Assembly: GCF_030052995.1 (NCBI RefSeq)
Contig: NZ_JASJPW010000001.1
Coordinates: 1,298,501 to 1,362,500, forward strand
Direction: 5' to 3'
Origin: Gemmobacter sp. 24YEA27
Lineage (GTDB): Bacteria > Pseudomonadota > Alphaproteobacteria > Rhodobacterales > Rhodobacteraceae
DNA: 64,000 bases
A model generated the notes under the pieces. The model was not told where the DNA came from and made no database searches. It saw nothing but the letters and a program-made list of their open reading frames with translations. Below, piece after piece: positions 48,050 to 60,530 of the stretch (positions within the stretch are counted from its first letter, which is position 1; the number at the start of each line of letters is the position of its first letter). A program made the translations under genes and the position numbers.

Positions 48050-48337
48050 ATGAAGTCCGTTTTCGATATCCTGATGCTTCTCCTCGGTGTGGCGCAATTT
48101 GTGGTGCTCGCCCATGTCATTCTCAGCTGGCTGATCAATTTCCAGGTGCTGAATATCCGCCAGCCGCTGGTGGCCCAGATCTGGTACAGCCTGAACCGCC
48201 TGCTCGAGCCGGTTTACAACCGCGTCCGCAGCATTCTGCCATCGATGCAGGGCATTGATTTCGCGCCGCTGGTGGTCCTGCTCGTGATCATCGGGCTTCG
48301 GATGATCCTTCTCAACAACCAATACGCCTTCATGTGA
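48050..48337 (+). CDS. yggT: YggT-family membrane protein
   Basis: A 95-residue protein with two hydrophobic halves: FDILMLLLGVAQFVVLAHVI and FAPLVVLLVIIGLRMILL. The middle has NRLLEPVYNRVRSILPSMQGIDF in the family pattern (LEPxxxxxRxxLP). YggT proteins are inner-membrane proteins linked to cell division and osmotic tolerance in some bacteria. GAGGAAAAG precedes the ATG. Its TGA shares a base with the recQ ATG. Confidence 0.88.
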   Translation: MKSVFDILMLLLGVAQFVVLAHVILSWLINFQVLNIRQPLVAQIWYSLNRLLEPVYNRVRSILPSMQGIDFAPLVVLLVIIGLRMILLNNQYAFM

Positions 48338-50398
48338 TGCGCGACAGCGTCCCTCTCTCTCCCGCCGCGCTGCTGGCGGAGATATTCGGCTTTCAGGGCT
48401 TCCGCCCCGGCCAGGCCGAGATTGTAGAGGCGGTGACGGCCGGGCTGAACACGCTGGCGATCATGCCGACGGGTGGCGGGAAATCGCTGTGTTTCCAGCT
48501 GCCTGCTCTGTGCCGCGACGGTGTGACGGTGGTGATATCGCCGCTGATCGCCCTGATGCGCGACCAGGTCCGGGGCCTGCGCGAGGCGGGGGTCGAGGCG
48601 GGCGCGCTGACCTCCGGCAATACCGATGAGGAAACCGAAGAGGTCTTTCAGGCGCTGGATGAGGGGCGGCTGAAGCTTCTTTACATGGCGCCGGAACGCC
48701 TGGCGGCGGGGGCGACTTCGGCGCTGCTCCGCCGGATCAATGTGACGCTGATCGCGGTCGATGAGGCGCATTGCGTCAGCCAGTGGGCCATGATTTCCGC
48801 CCTGATTATCTGCGCATCGGGGAACTCAGGCGCGCGCTGAACGTGCCGCTTGCCGCCTTCACCGCCACCGCGGATGAGGAAACCCGCGCCGAAATCGTGC
48901 AGCGCCTGTTTGATGGCGCGCAGCCCGAGACGTTTCTGCGCGGCTTTGACCGCCCGAATATCCACCTCTCCTTCGCGGCCAAAGACACGCCGCGCGAACA
49001 GATCCTGCGCTATGCGGCCGCGCGGCGTGGTCAGTCCGGCATTGTTTATTGCGGCACCCGCGCCAAGACCGAGACGCTGGCCCAGGCTTTGCGCGAGGCG
49101 GGCCATTCTGCCTTGCATTACCATGGCGGCATGGAGGCGGGCGAGCGCCGCCATGTCGAGACCCGGTTCCAGCGCGATGACGGGCTGATCGTGGTGGCGA
49201 CGGTGGCCTTCGGGATGGGGATCGACAAGCCCGATATCCGCTGGGTCGCCCATGCCGATCTGCCGAAATCCATCGAATCCTATTACCAGGAGATCGGCCG
49301 TGCCGGTCGTGATGGCGCACCCGCCGAGGCGCTGACGCTTTATGGTGCCGACGATATCCGCTACCGCCGCACTCAGATCGACGAGGGCGCAGCGCCGCCC
49401 GAGCGTAAGGCCGCCGATCATGGCCGCCTCAACGCGCTTCTGGGTCTGGCCGAGGCGCTGGCCTGCCGCCGTCAGGTGCTGCTGGCCTATTTCGGCGAGG
49501 CAAGCGGGCCTTGCGGCAATTGTGATCTCTGCGCCACGCCGCCGGCGGTGTTTGATGGCACAGAACCTGTCCGCAAGGCGCTTTCCGCCGTGCTCAGGAC
49601 CGGCGAAAGCTATGGTGCGGGCCATCTGATCGACATTCTCACCGGCACATCGACCGAAAAGGTGCGCGCGCGCGGGCATCAGGATCTGCCGACCTTCGGG
49701 TCGGGCGCGAGCTTTCGAAAGCCGCCTGGGGATCGGTTTTTCTGCAGATGATGGGGCGCGATCTTCTGCGGCCGGATTTTGAACGCCACGGCGCGCTGAG
49801 AATGACCGATGCCGCCCGCCCGGTCTTGCGCGGCGAGGTGGACATCCAGCTTCGCCGCCCCGATATCCGCGCGCCGAAATCGGTGGTCAAGGCGCTGGTG
49901 GCTGAGGAAGACGCGCCGATCCTTTCGGCGCTGAAGGCCAAACGCCGGGCGCTGGCCGAGGCGGCGGGGGTCCCGGCCTATGTGATTTTCGCCGACCGCA
50001 CCCTGATCGAGATGGCCGAGAAACGGCCCGAAACCCTGGATCAGATGGCGCAGATTTCCGGGGTTGGTGCGAAAAAGCTGGAAAGCTACGGGCTGGCATT
50101 CCTCCAGGTGATCGCGTCGGGGATGCAGGCGCCGCATCCGGCGCGGATGGCGCTGGCGGGGCAGGCGGCGGGCGCGGTCTATGACCTTCTGGCCGAGGCG
50201 CAGCTGCGGCTCGCGCGGGGCGAGGACGGGATCGGCAAACATCTTTCCTGCAATGCGACCACCTTGCGCCAGATTGCCGAACGCCGCCCGTCAAGCCTGA
50301 CCGAGCTGGAGCGGGTTCAGGGCATGGGACAGCAAAAGGCCGAGCGATTCGGCCCGGCCTTCCTTGATATCCTGCATCGGGCTGCCGGTGCGCGCTGA
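48337..50398 (+). CDS. recQ: ATP-dependent DNA helicase RecQ, two frame breaks
   Basis: Three frames form one 687-residue helicase. Motif I is IMPTGGGKSLCFQLPA, motif II VDEAHCVSQW; after one added base at GGG 48785-48787 comes GHDFRPDYLRIGELR, then motifs V and VI (TVAFGMGIDKPDIRW, QEIGRAGRDG). The zinc-binding Cys lie in CRRQ and CGNCDLC. After a second added base at GGG 49698-49700 the winged-helix end and HRDC domain follow (DRTLIEMAEKRPETLDQMA), plus a C-terminal helix-hairpin region. RecQ unwinds DNA in recombination repair. Confidence 0.92.
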
Positions 50399-50421: not shown

Positions 50422-51801
50422 TCAGCCGGTCACCCGCCTGTCGCCGCCAAGCTGGCTGATCGCCATCTGCGCCATACCCTGGTTCATCACCGTCGCATCT
50501 GCGAGCATAAAGACCGCGCCGGCGCCGTTCTGCACCTGGATCAGCAGCCGCCGTTTTGCGGTCGAGAGGCTGAAAAAGCTGACCGGACCACCCTCTGCCG
50601 TCAGCCGCTCATCTTGCAGCTGCGTCAGCATCACGCGGCAGAAATCGGCAAGCAGTGCCAGGGTTTCCGCATCGCCTGCAAGCAGGGTATGGGCCGCGCC
50701 ATCTTCATGCTGCAGGCCCGCCTGCAAGATCCCGGGCTGGACTGGCTTGGCTTTTTTCGCAATGGGTGCAACCGGTTCGGGGTCTGGCCTAACCGCAACA
50801 TCGGCCTCGACCCCGACTTTAGCCCCGGTGGCCGTGACGGGCAGGTGTTCCACCGCTGCGACGGGCTCGGAAACGCTTTCGGCAACCGTGTCGGAAACCG
50901 CGCTTTCAGGGGTCGGGACCTCCGTATCTGACCCGGCGTCGGAAAGGATCGTTTCAGCCACTTTCGCAACTTCCGCGACGAGAGGCGGGTCTTCTTCGGC
51001 TTCCGCCGTGAACCTGGCTTCAAAATCGGGGGCGGCCCGGGGTTCCACCGGCCTCTCGCGTGGCTCCCGGTCATAGATAGTGCGGCCAGGCTGGCCGGCG
51101 AAGCCACGCAGCAGCGCCGCAAGGGGCGCGCCGCCGGTTTCCTGCCATTCCGCTTCTGACCCGGCAGATGCCGCGATTTTGCGGCGGTCGCCAAAGAGGA
51201 AGAAGCGATGCCCGAAAAGGGCTGCGGTCTCACGCTCCATCCGCTCCATCAGCCGGCCACGATCCTTATCCGATCGCAGCTTGTCGCCGCGCGACACGAT
51301 CAGGATGGAGCGATCGGGCCTGGGCCCGCCCAGGGCTTCGACAATCGCCTTTTCCGTCAGCCGCCAGGCCTGCGAGCCGATGGTGACCCAGATCATCACA
51401 TCGGCCGATTGCACGAGGTCGATCTGATCGCCGGTCAGCTCTTCGGCCCTGGTCATCGGCAATTCGATCAGCTCAAATCCCGACAGATGCGGCTGATCGA
51501 GCCAGAGACGGACAAATTCGGCCTCATGAAACAGCTCTTTCGTGCCGGGGAGGGCGGCGCGGATCTCGCGACCATCCCGCCCGGAGGCCTCTATCCCGGG
51601 GATCTCGCGCCAGCCGGCGACCAGCACCGGGCGCGCGCTCTGCCCGATATTGTCCGGCAGCAGCTGGTCGCGCATCAGCGCATTCATCACGGTGGATTTT
51701 CCGGCACTGACTTCGCCGCAGATCACCACGCGCAAGGGTGAACCAGTGTCAGCACCTGCGCGTTTTTCCTGCAAAAGGGCGGTCAGATCTGTCATTTTCA
51801 T
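50422..51801 (-). CDS. GTPase with C-terminal Roadblock-like domain
   Basis: A 459-residue protein. The N-terminal GTPase domain has the P-loop VVICGEVSAGKSTVMNAL (about residues 25-42) and a SRGDKL segment in the place of the base-recognition NKxD. The usual DxxG switch is replaced by LIELPMTRAEE, so hydrolysis may be weak or absent. A long acidic, Val/Glu/Pro-rich linker (about residues 235-340) leads to a compact C-terminal domain (GILQAGLQHEDGAAH, LALLADFCRVMLTQL, AGAVFMLADATVMNQG) with the strand-helix pattern of Roadblock/LC7. It overlaps the dynamin-like gene by ATGA. Confidence 0.7.
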   Translation of the reverse strand: MKMTDLTALLQEKRAGADTGSPLRVVICGEVSAGKSTVMNALMRDQLLPDNIGQSARPVLVAGWREIPGIEASGRDGREIRAALPGTKELFHEAEFVRLWLDQPHLSGFELIELPMTRAEELTGDQIDLVQSADVMIWVTIGSQAWRLTEKAIVEALGGPRPDRSILIVSRGDKLRSDKDRGRLMERMERETAALFGHRFFLFGDRRKIAASAGSEAEWQETGGAPLAALLRGFAGQPGRTIYDREPRERPVEPRAAPDFEARFTAEAEEDPPLVAEVAKVAETILSDAGSDTEVPTPESAVSDTVAESVSEPVAAVEHLPVTATGAKVGVEADVAVRPDPEPVAPIAKKAKPVQPGILQAGLQHEDGAAHTLLAGDAETLALLADFCRVMLTQLQDERLTAEGGPVSFFSLSTAKRRLLIQVQNGAGAVFMLADATVMNQGMAQMAISQLGGDRRVTG

Positions 51802-53933
51802 GCGGCAGCCCCAGGTTCGGGAAGCTTCAGCCCGGTTTCCAGCGCGGCAAGCGCGGTCAGACGGTGCTCCAGCGCCTCCATTTTGGTTTGCAGGCGCCGC
51901 AAGACGGCCTTCCGGGCTTCGGGGTTAAGCGCAATGCGTTCCATATCTGTCTTGTCCTGTTGCAGCCGGTTCGCGTTTTCCGACAGGATTGCATCGAACA
52001 TCCTGAGCATCACACGGATCCGCGACATGCCCACACTGGCGCGCTCCAGCTGCGCCTCATTATAGGCCGCGAGAATTTTCTCGACCGAAGGCCGCAGCTC
52101 TTCGGTGGTCAGCATGCGCAAAGCGCCCAGCGATTTGTCGACATTCAGCGAGGGCTTGCGCCAGAAGGCCCAGCTGCGGTCAACGATCATGCCGACGCGC
52201 AGGTTGCGTTTCGCGAAGGTCAGGGTCGAGGTGAAACTGTAGCAGGGCAGTCCCTCCAGCGTTATCTCGGCGGTCGGATCCCCGGATGTCCTGTCCTGGA
52301 ATTTCGAACCAATCGCATGGCGGCAGGCCTGGATACAGCTTTGCAGCGCGGCGTCCGTTCCGCTGCGCGAGCCTATATAGCATTGGCGCGTTTCGGCCTC
52401 GAGCGCCGACTGAAGCGGCAGCAGGTCGAAATCGAGCGTTGTACTGGCATCGCCTGACTGAGCATCGCCGAAAAGCCGGTCCTCGAACGCGTTTTTCTGG
52501 CGGTCGACAAAATCGCCGATCGCATCCATGAGCCGCGCCTCAAGCCCGGTCCAGGATTTCGACACCACCTGTTCGATCTGCGTATCCGCCGCGTCGACGA
52601 GGCCCTCAAGCCGGTTGCGCAGATCGCGGATGCCTGAGATTTCAGACCCCACATCACGGGCCGCAGTTCTGGCGATATCGCTGCGCAGGCTTTCCATCTG
52701 CACCCGCAAAGCGTCGCGTTCGCGGTTGTCGATGAACCGGGCCGCATTCAGCTCGGCCCTGATATCACCGCGCAACTGGTTGAGCTGCTGGCTGCCCACA
52801 CCGCTGTCAAGCGTGGCCGAGAGCGTGTCTTTCAGCCGGTTCAGCCCCGAGGCGAGCATCAGCCGGTCTTTGCGGTCGCGCGGCAGGCGGCCGCAGGTTT
52901 CGCGGATATACTGCGCAAGCTCGTCACTGTCGGCGGCCTCGCGGAGTTGATCGGCCCCTTCGTCTTCGCGCAGCGCCAGATCGGCAAGCCAGGCAGATCC
53001 CGCAACGATACGAAAGTCGATTTCCGGGATCGCGGCGCGCAGCCGGCATTCGACATCGGCGATGACGCGCGGCACCTGGGCGCTGTAATCGTCAAGCTCG
53101 TCGATGCGATTTATGAAGATCACCACATCCTTGTCGTCCTGGCGCGCCAGGATCCGGATCAGCGCGACGTCGACATCGGTCAGCGGCTGATGCGCCGAAA
53201 GCACCATGATAAAGACATCGGATTTGTCGAGGCTGCGGCAGGTCAGCTCGTCACGCAGAAGGAACGGGTCATTTACCCCGGGGGTGTCGGTGATGATGGC
53301 CGGCACCTGGAATTCCGGCAAGCTCATGTAAACACTGGCGCTTTTTGTGAGTGCGGCATAACGGCCAAGCGCTTCGCGGTCGAGCCCGTCATCGCTTCCC
53401 GGGCCGGCGCAGACATAGCGCTTCAGCAGACCGGCCGAAAGGTAGTCATGGTCATGTCTGCTGCCAAGCAGCGCATGGTAATGGCGCACGAGCCGGCGCT
53501 GCGCGCGTTCGCGCATCTCTTCGCTCTGGCGGCGCAGCACGTCGCTGTCAAAGCCCGGCAACAGGTCTTCGGTCAGCTGGCGGATGGCAGAGCCGCTGTC
53601 GGTGATCTCCTGCCAGTCGGCTTCGTCGAAGAATTCGAAACGCGCGCCCGAGGCAGGATCCGAGGCGATATTGACGCGGATATTGGTGACCACCGATGTC
53701 CAGGGATTGATATCCGAGGGCAGGAAATCATGCTGCTGCAAAAAGGCATTGAGGAAGGTGGATTTCCCGGCCTTGACCTGACCGATCACTGCGATGCGGG
53801 CGGTCCAGTCCTCCAGCCGGTTGCGCAAGGGGGCAAAATTCGACCTGGTTTTCGGATCGACCAGGTGGTCGGCCCTGTCGAGCCCGTCGCGCAAAAAGGC
53901 GAGCTCCTGCCGCAGTTGCGGAGCGATTTTCAC
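51798..53933 (-). CDS. Bacterial dynamin-like GTPase
   Basis: A 711-residue large GTPase. The P-loop is VIGQVKAGKSTFLNAFL (residues 51-59 core), switch I has a Thr in INPWTSVVT, switch II is ITDTPGVNDP (residues 216-219 core), and the G4 motif is FINRIDELDD. The rest is helical with long coiled-coil-prone arms, as in dynamin stalk and bundle domains, with hydrophobic Trp-rich IVDRSWAFWRKPSL near residue 610 that might touch membranes. The GTG at 53933 has GGAGG upstream. Dynamin-like proteins reshape or fuse membranes. Confidence 0.8.
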   Translation of the reverse strand: MKIAPQLRQELAFLRDGLDRADHLVDPKTRSNFAPLRNRLEDWTARIAVIGQVKAGKSTFLNAFLQQHDFLPSDINPWTSVVTNIRVNIASDPASGARFEFFDEADWQEITDSGSAIRQLTEDLLPGFDSDVLRRQSEEMRERAQRRLVRHYHALLGSRHDHDYLSAGLLKRYVCAGPGSDDGLDREALGRYAALTKSASVYMSLPEFQVPAIITDTPGVNDPFLLRDELTCRSLDKSDVFIMVLSAHQPLTDVDVALIRILARQDDKDVVIFINRIDELDDYSAQVPRVIADVECRLRAAIPEIDFRIVAGSAWLADLALREDEGADQLREAADSDELAQYIRETCGRLPRDRKDRLMLASGLNRLKDTLSATLDSGVGSQQLNQLRGDIRAELNAARFIDNRERDALRVQMESLRSDIARTAARDVGSEISGIRDLRNRLEGLVDAADTQIEQVVSKSWTGLEARLMDAIGDFVDRQKNAFEDRLFGDAQSGDASTTLDFDLLPLQSALEAETRQCYIGSRSGTDAALQSCIQACRHAIGSKFQDRTSGDPTAEITLEGLPCYSFTSTLTFAKRNLRVGMIVDRSWAFWRKPSLNVDKSLGALRMLTTEELRPSVEKILAAYNEAQLERASVGMSRIRVMLRMFDAILSENANRLQQDKTDMERIALNPEARKAVLRRLQTKMEALEHRLTALAALETGLKLPEPGAAA

Positions 53934-54311
53934 GACGGCCTCCTTCCGGCCGGGATTCCGGCCACGCTGACTGGAAAAACGGCCAGCACCGGGCAAACAT
54001 CTCGCCACAGCTGACAGTCCGCTGCCCGGCCGCGCGCCGGGACAAAGGGGGGATACTGGCCCTGTCGGGCCGTTCTGGCCGCACTACTCGTTACCCCTGT
54101 CCGATTGCTTTACGTCACAGCCGGACAGATATCCTTAATGGTGGCTGGGTTATGGCGGTCTGAGGGCCAAGTCTTGGCTTTGAACGTCCTGGAACGCACT
54201 CTGTCCGGTCCCCTTCGGGGCTTGCAGGCATTTACCGCCCCGGCACAGCCCGGTCTTCTGGCGTCCCGGAAGGCGCCCGAAGACCGAAGATGCCCAAATG
54301 CCAGGGCCGTA

Positions 54312-54668
54312 TCAGACCTTCAGCTTGCCTTCGACGTTTTTCACGGAGATGCGGGCGAGACCTAGGTTCGCATTGCTGCGATCCAGCGCAACATAAACGA
54401 AGACATTCGGGTTCGAGGCCAGCGGGCGGATCAGGTGCAGCTGGGTGCCGAGCGTGATCAGGATGTCTTCGATATGATCATCAAGACCCAGAGCGGCCAT
54501 CGCAGCGTTCTTTGCGCGCACCACTTCGGTGTTTGCAGCGCCGGCGGCTTCGAGGTCGAATTTGATGCCGCTCGACTCGCTTGCGAGCATCAGGCCGGTT
54601 TCGCTGTCAACAAGGCAGGCGCCGATAAAGCCGGCGATTTTTTTCAGTTCAGTGATGTTGGTCGACAT
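54312..54668 (-). CDS. Roadblock/LC7-domain protein (MglB-like)
   Basis: A 118-residue single-domain protein. MSTNITELKKIAGFIGACLV begins the first helix and strand; DSETGLMLASES, TEVVRAKNAAMAALGLDDH and NVFVYVALDRSNANLGLARI follow in the Roadblock/LC7 order. Such domains often bind small GTPases or act as their GAPs, as MglB does for MglA. It is the first gene of the minus-strand run, with the dynamin-like and GTPase-Roadblock genes 378 bases further on. Confidence 0.85.
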   Translation of the reverse strand: MSTNITELKKIAGFIGACLVDSETGLMLASESSGIKFDLEAAGAANTEVVRAKNAAMAALGLDDHIEDILITLGTQLHLIRPLASNPNVFVYVALDRSNANLGLARISVKNVEGKLKV

Positions 54669-55244: not shown

Positions 55245-55861
55245 TCACGCCCTGGCGCGGTACTCTGCCGGAATCAGACCCCGCAGCGCATTGCCGACCC
55301 AAAGCCGGACGATGCCCAGGTCTTCGGGCCGCAGGATCTCTTCGGGGCAGGCCAGCTCACTGCGCAGGACACCCGGCAGCAGGCCAGAGCTCAGCGGCGG
55401 TGTGCGCAGCCCGGCGCCACGGTCGAAAAATACGGTGGTGATCGTGCCCTCGCTGATCTCGCCGCGCTCGTTCAGAAACAGCGCCTCGTCAATCCCGGCG
55501 GGCAAGGCCGCCCGGGCCGCATCATGAATAGCGCGGTGCGAAGATTTTACCGAAAGCCAGGGATCATCCGAAGCCAGCCGTTGTCCGGCGAGGCTGACGC
55601 TCCAATGCGGTTTCGCGGCGGGGAGGGGATGGGTTTCCCAAAGCAGCCGCCCCGTTGCATCCAGGGTCAGCCGCAGCCGGGCAGAAGACGCGGGCCCCGC
55701 AGGCGCCGCAGGTTCCGGCCGCGCCCAGCCAAGTGCCAGCGCGCTGCGCTGCAGCCGCGCCAGATGCAGCGGCCAGCGCGGCGCGGTGGCCCGGTCCAGA
55801 GCACCGTCTCGATCAGCGTCAGTCCCGGCTCACCGCCGCATTGACGAAGCGCGCTTTCCAT
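55245..55861 (-). CDS. pabC: Aminotransferase class IV, aminodeoxychorismate lyase-like, one frame break
   Basis: A class IV PLP enzyme of about 205 residues. The first frame reads MESALRQCGGEPGLTLIETV; after one added base near 55788-55792 it continues LHLARLQRSALALGW, LASDDPWLSVKSSHR (PLP Lys region), EALFLNERGEISEGTITTVF and LLPGVLRSELA. It converts aminodeoxychorismate to p-aminobenzoate in folate synthesis. The start overlaps pabB by 43 bases, an unusually long overlap that fits the group's pabBC pairing. Confidence 0.82.
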
Positions 55862-56975
55862 AGCGCCTCCTCCCATTCGCCGGCCTCGGTCGAGCCATAG
55901 ACCACGCCGCCTCCGACATTCATCCTGATTTCACCGCCATCCACCGTCAGCGTGCGGATAGCGACCGAGAAATCGGCGCTGCCATCGGGGGCCATCCAGC
56001 CGATCGCGCCACAATAGGCATCGCGCGCGAAAGGCTCGACCTCGCGGATGACCTCCATCGCGCGGATCTTCGGCGCGCCGGTGACCGACCCGCAGGGGAA
56101 CAAGGCGCGGATCAGGTCAGGCAGGCTGGCAGGCTGCGCAAGCTGGCCCTGCACCTCGGACACCATCTGATGCACGGTCGCGTAATGTTCGACGGCGTAA
56201 AGTTCGGGCACTTTCACGCTGCCGATCTGCGAGATCCGGCTGATATCATTCCTCAGCAGGTCGACGATCATCAGATTCTCGGCCCGGTCCTTGGGCTTGA
56301 GCGCAGCTCTTGCGCCAGGCCCGCGTCGCGGGCGGGGTCGGCGTCGCGGGGGCGGGTGCCTTTCATCGGGCGGGTGGTGATCCGGCCATCGGCCTCAAGG
56401 CGGAAGAACAGTTCGGGGCTGCGCGAGACCAGAGCCGGCTCGCCCGCCAGATCGACAAAGGCGCCATGCCCGACCGGGCCAGAGCGCCGCAGCCGGCCGT
56501 AAAGCCCCTCGGGCGTGCCCGAAAGCAGGCGCGAGACCAACGGAAAGGTCAGATTGGCCTGGTAGATATCGCCGGCCGCGATCAGCTCCAGCACCCGGGC
56601 AATCGCACGGTTGTAGTCTTCGCGCGAGATCACCGGCTCGGGCGCGGAAATACGGGTCGCCCCGGCTTCCTCCGCCATCCTCGCCAGAATCGGTGCGGGG
56701 TCACAGGGGCCGGTATAGGTCGCGAGATGCACCAGCGGCAGGCGGCGATCCCCGGGCATCAGCGGAAGAAGCCGGTCCTCGAACGCATATCCCGCCTCAT
56801 ACGAGATATAACCCGCAATCCATGCCCCGGCCCGGCGCGCCTCTTCGGCGTCGCGCAATACCGTCTCGACTTCCTCAGGGGTGCGTGCGGTTTTCACCGA
56901 CAACGCGTCATCAAACAGCGCCGGGCGCTCCCCGGGGCCGTGTTCGAAAAAAATCTGGCGTCTGCTGCTTTGCAT
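55819..56975 (-). CDS. pabB: Aminodeoxychorismate synthase component I, one frame break
   Basis: The protein has IAGYISYEAGYAFED, IAAGDIYQANLTFPL, RPMKGTRPRDADP and, after one added base at GGG 56293-56295, SPKDRAENLMIVDLLRNDIS, FPCGSVTGAPKIRAMEVI and MNVGGGVVYGSTEAGEWEE. This is the chorismate-binding fold of PabB. Corrected length is about 385 residues. It transfers ammonia to chorismate for p-aminobenzoate. The ATG at 56975 begins MQSSRRQIFFEHG. Followed by overlapping pabC. Confidence 0.88.
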
Positions 56976-57201
56976 AATGGGCACAGGAATAGGGGCTGGC
57001 GGAGGACTGCGCCAGCCGGAATAACGGGTGGGAGCCGTTGCGACCACTGGCGGAGATCGGTGGCGCGACAGGGAGCGCGATGGGGGACGCGGCCCGGCGT
57101 GCTCTGGCGCGGGTGTCGGTTTGCCCTTGCGCCCATGCCGCGCCCCTCTATAACCCCGGAAAATTTAGCGACAGCCAGCCCAAAAACCTGAGGTTCCCGA
57201 C

Positions 57202-60530
<3,329 letters not shown>

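Follow-up and report, generated by a model that had tools for sequence, protein, structure and literature searches.

Gene content of the locus

The stretch analysed here (the window) is 64,000 nucleotides (nt) long and covers positions 1,298,501 to 1,362,500 of contig NZ_JASJPW010000001.1 of Gemmobacter sp. 24YEA27 (Rhodobacteraceae; assembly GCF_030052995.1). On its minus strand lie three intact open reading frames (ORFs), transcribed in the order RB, DLP and G2, for a small Roadblock/LC7-like protein, a dynamin-like GTPase and a second, shorter protein of the dynamin family. The initial annotation of this DNA, made from the letters alone, had placed three same-strand genes here, the two GTPase genes overlapping by ATGA; the positions, the shared strand and the overlap were all borne out. 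From the overlap, DLP and G2 are predicted to be translationally coupled. The features, in window coordinates, are as follows.

RB, 54312..54668, minus strand: 118 amino acids (aa), predicted stand-alone, divergent Roadblock/LC7-like protein
DLP, 51798..53933, minus strand: 711 aa, GTG start, dynamin-like GTPase, subgroup Ib (from the tree)
DLP G1/P-loop GQVKAGKS, residues 51-58, 53760..53783, minus strand (19-sequence alignment)
DLP G3 DTPG, residues 216-219, 53277..53288, minus strand: invariant in 19/19 aligned sequences
DLP G4 NRID, residues 275-278, 53100..53111, minus strand (19-sequence alignment)
DLP aromatic-basic loop RSWAFWR, residues 586-592, 52158..52178, minus strand: candidate membrane-inserting tip
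ATGA overlap of the DLP stop and the G2 start, 51798..51801, minus strand (ORF coordinates and sequence)
G2, 50422..51801, minus strand: 459 aa, short dynamin-family (pseudo)GTPase with a C-terminal Roadblock-like domain
G2 P-loop GEVSAGKST, residues 29-37, 51691..51717, minus strand (sequence and alignment)
G2 degenerate G3 ELIELPM in place of xIIDTPG, residues 110-116, 51454..51474, minus strand (paralogue alignment)
G2 G4-like SRGD, residues 170-173, 51283..51294, minus strand: D173 invariant in 24 aligned sequences
G2 linker, about residues 236-345, 50767..51096, minus strand: variable in sequence between relatives
G2 C-terminal Roadblock-like domain, about residues 346-452, 50446..50766, minus strand (profile comparisons)

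The three genes are kept together in relatives

Among 13 genomes of the genus, RB was found in seven and DLP in the same seven. In a sample of 120 genomes, one for each genus of the family, 28 carried DLP and six carried RB, all six of them within the 28 (Fisher p 1e-4); RB and DLP lay within about 2.5 kb of each other in five of these six, RB being on another contig in G047. Scanning named genomes turned up 104 relatives of RB; the best 80 were kept as RB loci, with flanks of up to 9 kb (shorter at contig ends). DLP or G2 was present inside the flanks of 51/80 loci. At the 50 loci with separate matches the nearest DLP or G2 was always on the strand of RB (50/50), with a median gap of 276 nt and 49 of the gaps under 1 kb. 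Sorted by position, RB came first at 21 of the 80 loci, behind at 30 and stood alone at 29, the fused locus L107 being entered as RB behind and L099, where the dynamin genes are reversed, as RB first. Ten of the 29 unlinked loci (L067, L069, L072, L077, L080, L082, L089, L113, L119 and L129) were extra copies from strains that also contributed a linked copy to the 80, and seven (L118, L120, L122-L124, L127 and L128) were from Ruegeria. At L118, L120, L122, L123, L127 and L128 the genes directly behind RB are those of a response regulator and a histidine kinase, which places RB in a further signalling context.

RB and G2 also occur as one protein. In five genomes RB formed the C-terminal domain of G2 within a single ORF: HTM 045 (L033/L099), G097 (L041), Rubricella aquisinus (L039/L087), a Litoreibacter metagenome-assembled genome (L107) and Loktanella sp. 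D2R18 (L088). The RB model used for this count was trained partly on fused sequences, and an earlier model built without them detects all five. These fusions point to a physical contact between RB and G2. The shared seven of 13 genomes, the 51/80 linked loci and the fusions make it unlikely that the genes are grouped by chance. On the gene sequences compared, the composition and linkage of the system are well supported; the expectation that relatives would keep the three genes together was supported, as was the coupling of a dynamin-like protein to Roadblock proteins, for which the linkage, the fusions and 23/28 surveyed genomes (below) speak.

DLP is a dynamin-like GTPase with complete G motifs and G2 a partner that has lost its switch

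DLP matched the Pfam family Dynamin_N with an E value of 5.5e-16 (59.5 bits; the cut-off is 27). In an alignment of 19 sequences, the window DLP included, the core residues G51, Q52, G56 and K57, the DTPG motif and N275, R276 and D278 were invariant, and the 711-residue dynamin-like GTPase with complete G1, G3 and G4 motifs that had been proposed for this gene was upheld. An alternative, longer GTG start would give a protein of 736 aa; the 711-aa start is favoured by the starts of relatives, for example those of L032 and L022 (M[KQ]IAP). Searched against the Protein Data Bank (PDB), the family profile of DLP found Nostoc BDLP best (8.4e-13), followed by Cj-DLP1 of Campylobacter (1.8e-12). The PADLOC models LeoA (4.1e-12) and LeoBC (2e-9) matched part of DLP, in an output that carries no cut-offs, and this match may be generic to dynamins. 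By analogy, the loop RSWAFWR is a candidate membrane tip of DLP: tryptophan occupied column 588 in 56/73 aligned DLPs and column 591 in 52/73.

The match of G2 to Dynamin_N (1.8e-7) covered the P-loop region only (residues 25-57), and the top PDB match of the G2 family profile was Cj-DLP2 (5owv_C, 9e-19). The intact P-loop and lost DxxG switch that had been read in G2 stood up to comparison, ELIELPM being found where many G2 paralogues have DTPG. The 80 RB loci contained 67 G2 ORFs, of which 64 had a P-loop by pattern and were scored for the switch (L073, L093 and L096, unmatched by the pattern, were excluded). DxxG was lost in 19/19 ORFs that carry a C-terminal domain of the window type, whereas among the 45 ORFs without that domain it was kept in 42 and lost in three (L079, L081 and L099); the Fisher value of 1.8e-13 overstates independence, the sequences being related. 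G2 is predicted to bind nucleotide and to hydrolyse it poorly. Its G domain is followed by a variable stretch of about 110 residues and then by some 105 residues of Roadblock-like domain, compared with about 350 residues in Cj-DLP2; judged by this length, G2 has no room for a neck and trunk stalk.

Roadblock-like character of the G2 C-terminus and of RB

The initial annotation had seen a Roadblock-like domain at the end of G2. A plain Pfam search with the Roadblock family gave no match to the C-terminus of the window G2, and for a set of 27 G2 proteins 28 Pfam families were matched, the 25 listed not including Robl_LC7, but comparison of profiles did recover the domain. A profile of 27 G2 C-termini, the window G2 included (115 columns), was aligned over 94 columns with a Robl_LC7 profile made from Pfam-positive proteins of other bacteria (27 used, three of the 30 loci being omitted), at an hhalign P of 3.5e-5, a probability of 72% and a score of 31.0; the highest score among 100 column shuffles was 18.9 and the reversed profile scored 16.0. 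The C-terminus also aligned with the RB profile (P 7e-4, score 24.7, 76 columns; maximum of 60 shuffles 19.5), and its model matched a Pfam-positive Streptomyces Roadblock protein with an E value of 1.1e-4 in a small set. As far as sequence comparison can tell, a Roadblock-like module lies at the end of G2, or directly behind it, in several settings.

RB has 1570 homologues at E <= 1e-3. Pfam gave no match to the window RB up to E=1, and a search of its own genome with Pfam Robl_LC7 gave nothing up to the same value. In a narrow set of the RB family Robl_LC7 was found in 3/40 sequences (best E 0.02) and WDR54 in five; in a wider set, which overlaps the narrow one by 20 sequences, it was found in 12/41 at E up to 1 (best 2.9e-4), the next family being found in two. 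When 1,245 predicted proteins from RB neighbourhoods were searched with the Robl profile, the best 40 rows were all RB (E 5.4e-5 to 0.16). The RB profile searched against PDB sequences gave only a chance match, to a serine protease (E 0.79). The RB family is at or below the reach of the Pfam Robl_LC7 model, and RB is likely to be a divergent Roadblock subfamily that can be recognised at the level of the family and not from the single window sequence. The earlier naming of RB as a stand-alone Roadblock/LC7 protein thus probably holds for its family, but the window sequence has no Pfam match. The same genome contains a degenerate second copy of RB with an altered C-terminal end (L038 8016-8444; G000:C1:1725141-1725449), with no DLP match nearby.

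Operon types and the wider Rhodobacteraceae system

Larger operons containing these genes, which had been overlooked in the earlier reading, were found in relatives. Type I has the order RB-DLPa-G2a-DLPb-G2b, with a protein of family F6 (about 119 aa) behind it in ten loci. Type II has the order DLP-G2-RB, with a protein of family F5 (about 286 aa) before DLP in 14 loci and a PAS protein (F12) behind in six. Type III, the commonest arrangement, runs kinase-(FHA)-PP2C-G2-like-DLP-G2-s131-s260; examples are L170 3016-13411, L036, L044, L050 and L193 4496-17743. In a tree of 73 DLPs the window DLP shared a clade with 15 of the 18 DLPs that stand second in type I operons. Those that stand first (15/15) grouped in another clade (17 tips, support 1.0), which also contains the first DLP of a second dynamin locus in the same genome. 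Because the window DLP groups with the second-position DLPs, we read the window set as a reduced type I operon, RB-DLPb-G2b. The second dynamin locus (L021 9025-16883; G000:C1:941039-948765) has the order DLPa-G2a-DLPb'-DLPc and thus one G2 and three DLPs; the second of these DLPs is divided between two frames. At the 15 type I loci where both G2 proteins were scored, the first kept DxxG and the second lacked it in 15/15, and the second carried the Roadblock-like end in 14, L081 being the exception.

The surroundings of DLP were surveyed in the 28 DLP genomes of the 120-genome sample (34 loci). G2 adjoined DLP in 28/28, and a Roadblock-like gene (RB, s131 or an end of the G2 type) was detected near the pair by hidden Markov model (HMM) in 23, or 24 with G097, whose RB, as part of a G2 fusion, escaped the HMM count through masking; this count is not blind, the s131 model having been made from eight sequences, six of them from surveyed genomes. 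In G050 and G085 the contig ends beside the DLP-G2 pair. A Ser/Thr kinase and a PP2C phosphatase were present in 20/28 genomes, an FHA-like protein in 11 and s260 in 19; the proteins of L170 and L073 were the BLAST queries for kinase, PP2C and FHA, whose counts are likewise not blind. In L170 Pfam recognised the kinase (6.8e-30) and PP2C (3.1e-10), the FHA-like match being below the curated cut-off, and on a Ruegeria conchae plasmid two dynamin pairs are followed by genes annotated as kinase, FHA and PP2C.

The G2 of type III is without a Roadblock-like end, and a separate s131 gene (128-150 aa, n=8) then follows; the s131 profile (n=8) aligned with Robl_LC7 at P 1.2e-5 and a score of 35.0, against a maximum of 14.1 in 40 shuffles. 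Operons like type III also have an extra G2-like protein (L170 7403-8725; L073 11128; L093 9820), in which the P-loop pattern was not matched at L073 and L093. In F5 the second half resembles s260, a type III gene for a protein of 260 aa (P 9.6e-5, with no shuffle control; the divergent row L049_308 was dropped from the s260 alignment), and the first half gave a weak similarity to Roadblock (P 0.0013 over 45 columns), for which no Roadblock identity is claimed. F6 had been considered as another Roadblock protein and was rejected, having no profile similarity; it served as a negative control. Taken together, the gene orders suggest that the window set stands at the compact end of a broader dynamin system of the Rhodobacteraceae, usually with a Roadblock-like component, of which type I adds a second DLP-G2 pair and type III the kinase, FHA and phosphatase genes and a third Roadblock-like family.

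Range and mobility

A search across the class found DLP in at least 2/372 genomes, G2 in at least 2/385 and RB in at least 4/385; these are lower bounds, since at most three (DLP), 11 (RB) and four (G2) candidates per genome were scored and few genomes of the family were included. Two of the RB matches lay outside the family, one of them weak. DLP was matched in 23/72,556 plasmid records, 12 of them Leisingera and five Ruegeria, and in none of 50,697 phage records; three viral contigs carried RB relatives. RB relatives are present in other phyla, and among the 15 of 28 records listed, relatives with 45-57% identity were on plasmids of Streptomyces, Acinetobacter, Comamonas and others. In the four such plasmid regions viewed no dynamin was annotated, and in two of the four (Streptomyces and Acinetobacter) a Pfam-positive Roadblock gene lay near the RB relative. 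These two regions (L191 4022-6354 and L189 47-1924) combine the RB relative and the Pfam-positive Roadblock gene with a protein of 271-321 aa, which in Streptomyces has a weak DUF4388 match, and are possibly a two-Roadblock system without dynamin. In a viral contig (L185 7455-8342) an RB domain is fused behind an N-terminal part read as DUF4388-like, and in G272 (L165 1495-2586) behind a part read as PAS-like. RB may be an older type of Roadblock that joined dynamins in the Rhodobacteraceae.

Surroundings of the window locus

The ten flanking ORFs scanned encode YggT, recQ (three pieces), carB, a PRC-barrel protein, a DEAD helicase, and chorismate-binding (two pieces) and aminotransferase-IV enzymes; no GTPase, Ras-like or other, was among them. 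In the window recQ (48334-50398), the chorismate-binding gene (55819-57047) and carB (57202-60530) are each split into overlapping frames. The assembly probably carries single-base indels around them, because in close relatives all three are longer, unbroken frames. recQ and pabB were found in 13/13 genus genomes, on separate contigs in eight; in G006 the distance from one to the other is 7.8 kb, with other genes in the interval, and the dynamin cluster is on a different contig. No clean empty site for the cluster was found among the 13 genomes by this comparison of recQ and pabB.

Discussion

By sequence and genome comparison, the window encodes a conserved DLP-G2 pair, in which G2 has no room for a stalk, has lost its G3 motif and ends in a Roadblock-like domain, with RB encoded alongside. 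Most bacterial dynamins are described as occurring in gene pairs (PMC6104087), and the nearest known system is the side-by-side pair Cj-DLP1/Cj-DLP2 (PDB 5owv; PMC6104087), to whose members DLP and G2 respectively match by profile. That pair is described as a 2:2 tetramer with Cj-DLP2 as the central back-to-back dimer; removal of the trunk tip of Cj-DLP2 leaves heterodimers only, and assembly of the tetramer switches on GTPase activity and lipid binding (PMC6104087). Unlike Cj-DLP2, G2 has a linker and a predicted Roadblock-like domain in the position of neck and trunk; unlike Cj-DLP1, DLP is without a long (119-aa) N-terminal assembly domain; and the extra Roadblock gene and the lost G3 of the window G2 have no counterpart in that pair. 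With Nostoc BDLP and other bacterial DLPs, DLP shares Dynamin_N, the G1, G3 and G4 motifs and a length of about 700 aa, but it is coupled to Roadblock-like proteins and, in 20/28 genomes, to a kinase and a phosphatase. LeoABC also has several dynamin-family genes in one operon, and its LeoA and LeoBC models match part of DLP; we know of no Roadblock component in it. The Streptomyces conservon, described as a histidine kinase, a Roadblock protein, a small GTPase and a conserved protein (PMC4316618), likewise joins a sensor, a Roadblock protein and a GTPase in one operon, but here a dynamin replaces the small GTPase and a type III Ser/Thr kinase, FHA-like protein and PP2C replace the histidine kinase; the combination of histidine kinase, conserved protein and small GTPase was not found at the window locus or in its ten flanking ORFs. 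Among the matches listed in a search of PMC titles and the starts of abstracts, outside which subscription papers and preprints fall, none dealt with a bacterial dynamin that is accompanied by Roadblock proteins or by a kinase-FHA-PP2C operon. To our knowledge heterotypic bacterial dynamin pairs are established, and the coupling to Roadblock and the stalk-less partner are apparently new.

We propose that the window set belongs, in compact form, to a group of Roadblock-coupled heterotypic dynamin systems of the Rhodobacteraceae, in which Roadblock contacts take the place of the stalk as the joint through which a membrane-tethering dynamin pair is assembled or gated, and give this proposal a probability of about one half. 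The G domain of DLP would pair with that of G2 in the manner of Cj-DLP1/Cj-DLP2, with G2, nucleotide bound and poor in hydrolysis, as the activating and structural partner. The Roadblock domain of G2 would pair with RB or with itself and so substitute for back-to-back dimerisation through the Cj-DLP2 trunk; a dimerising role is suggested for it because G2 leaves no room for neck and trunk. Two DLP-G2 units joined in this way could bridge two membrane patches. Because the joint would be a separate small protein, assembly could be gated, here through the supply of RB and in the sister operons through a Ser/Thr kinase, a PP2C phosphatase and an FHA-like protein, or through a PAS protein. The likely job would be tethering, sealing or remodelling of the cytoplasmic membrane on demand, under stress. 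The extension to the family as a whole, phospho-regulated dynamin machines in which a dynamin partner would have swapped its stalk for Roadblock and two-membrane tethers would be assembled by Roadblock pairing (the G2 C-terminus with RB, or in type III a third Roadblock-like protein) downstream of kinase, FHA-like protein and PP2C, or of PAS, is a more tentative suggestion.

Several observations weigh against this proposal. The flanks of 29/80 RB loci contained neither DLP nor G2, and plasmids of Streptomyces, Acinetobacter, Comamonas and Methylomagnum carry RB relatives in other gene settings. RB is also missing from L021, the other dynamin locus of this genome, and no Roadblock was detected with DLP-G2 in G015 and G075. 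The assignment of RB to Roadblock draws on mostly weak HMM matches, and its hhalign comparison with Robl_LC7 did not rise above shuffles (19.8 against a maximum of 21.4 in 100, and 20.1 against 21.7 in 60); the similarity between the s131 profile and the G2 C-terminus was weak (P 0.013, score 18.2, shuffle maximum 15.9). The P-loop of DLP starts at residue 51, which leaves no place for an assembly domain like the 119 residues of Cj-DLP1. Finally, three G2 proteins, L079, L081 and the RB-fused L099, have lost G3 and are without the window-type domain, and the other fused G2-RB proteins in that set, three of the four, have kept DxxG.

One alternative concerns purpose: the system may be an anti-phage or membrane-surveillance defence in which DLP clusters at damaged membrane and delays lysis, the kinase or PAS proteins acting as sensors. 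Bacillus subtilis DynA is described as delaying phage lysis (PMC8844932) and a kinase-kinase-phosphatase module as protecting against phage (PMC11341870), and the patchy occurrence of DLP (7/13 genus genomes), its presence on some plasmids and the PADLOC matches to LeoA and LeoBC would fit. However, those matches come without a cut-off and may be generic to dynamins, DLP was unmatched among the phage records, and the window locus lies between ordinary housekeeping genes, whose neighbourhood was not scanned for defence genes. We regard defence as a possible purpose, with the odds somewhat against it; it is compatible with a Roadblock joint and the two can be true together.

Another possibility is that RB works as MglB does, a Roadblock dimer acting on the G domain of DLP or G2 as GTPase-activating protein (GAP) or guanine nucleotide exchange factor (GEF) and so setting its nucleotide state. 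MglA/MglB had been offered as a parallel in the initial annotation, and MglB, a Roadblock protein, is described as both GAP and GEF for MglA (PMC9481161, PMC11016934, PMC4316618); in both systems a Roadblock protein is coupled to a GTPase gene (PMC4316618), and a G2 without G3 could itself belong to a regulator. The GTPase here is, however, of the dynamin family and not small and Ras-like, the window RB has no Robl_LC7 match and the ten flanking ORFs hold no Ras-like GTPase; Cj-DLP1/Cj-DLP2 is the closer parallel. Dynamins moreover activate themselves through G-domain dimers and need no outside GAP, and the five genomes in which a fused G2 ends in RB fit a role in assembly at least equally well. 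We consider an MglB-like role unlikely.

The proposed joint also supposes that the end of G2 is a Roadblock domain and not some other small alpha/beta fold. The missing Robl_LC7 among the Pfam families listed for G2 proteins and an hhalign probability of just 72% would suit another fold, but the alignment is co-linear over 94/115 columns and scores far above its shuffled and reversed controls, the C-terminus agrees with the RB profile and its model with the Streptomyces Roadblock protein, and in other genomes RB is fused at the equivalent place of G2, which makes a different fold improbable. That RB is a mere passenger, a common Rhodobacteraceae Roadblock family inherited beside dynamin genes, we think very unlikely: the unlinked RB loci and the relatives far outside the family, none of whose four viewed regions has an annotated dynamin, would agree with it, but the five fusions, the shared strand at 50/50 loci, the occurrence of both gene orders, the identical seven genus genomes and the presence in type III of another Roadblock-like family in the corresponding position all speak against it.

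Because similar gene sets recur in relatives, often beside kinase and phosphatase genes, the locus suggests an undescribed switch for bacterial membrane remodelling. Few triggers of bacterial dynamins are known to us; this family offers a candidate signal path that can be named gene by gene and, with it, a candidate switch for assembly. In eukaryotes, Roadblock proteins scaffold the GTPases of membrane traffic (Rag/Ragulator). If the family-wide suggestion is right, Roadblock scaffolds would govern membrane remodelling in bacteria independently of Ras-like GTPases. A bacterial dynamin under Roadblock control would bear on the origin of such control.

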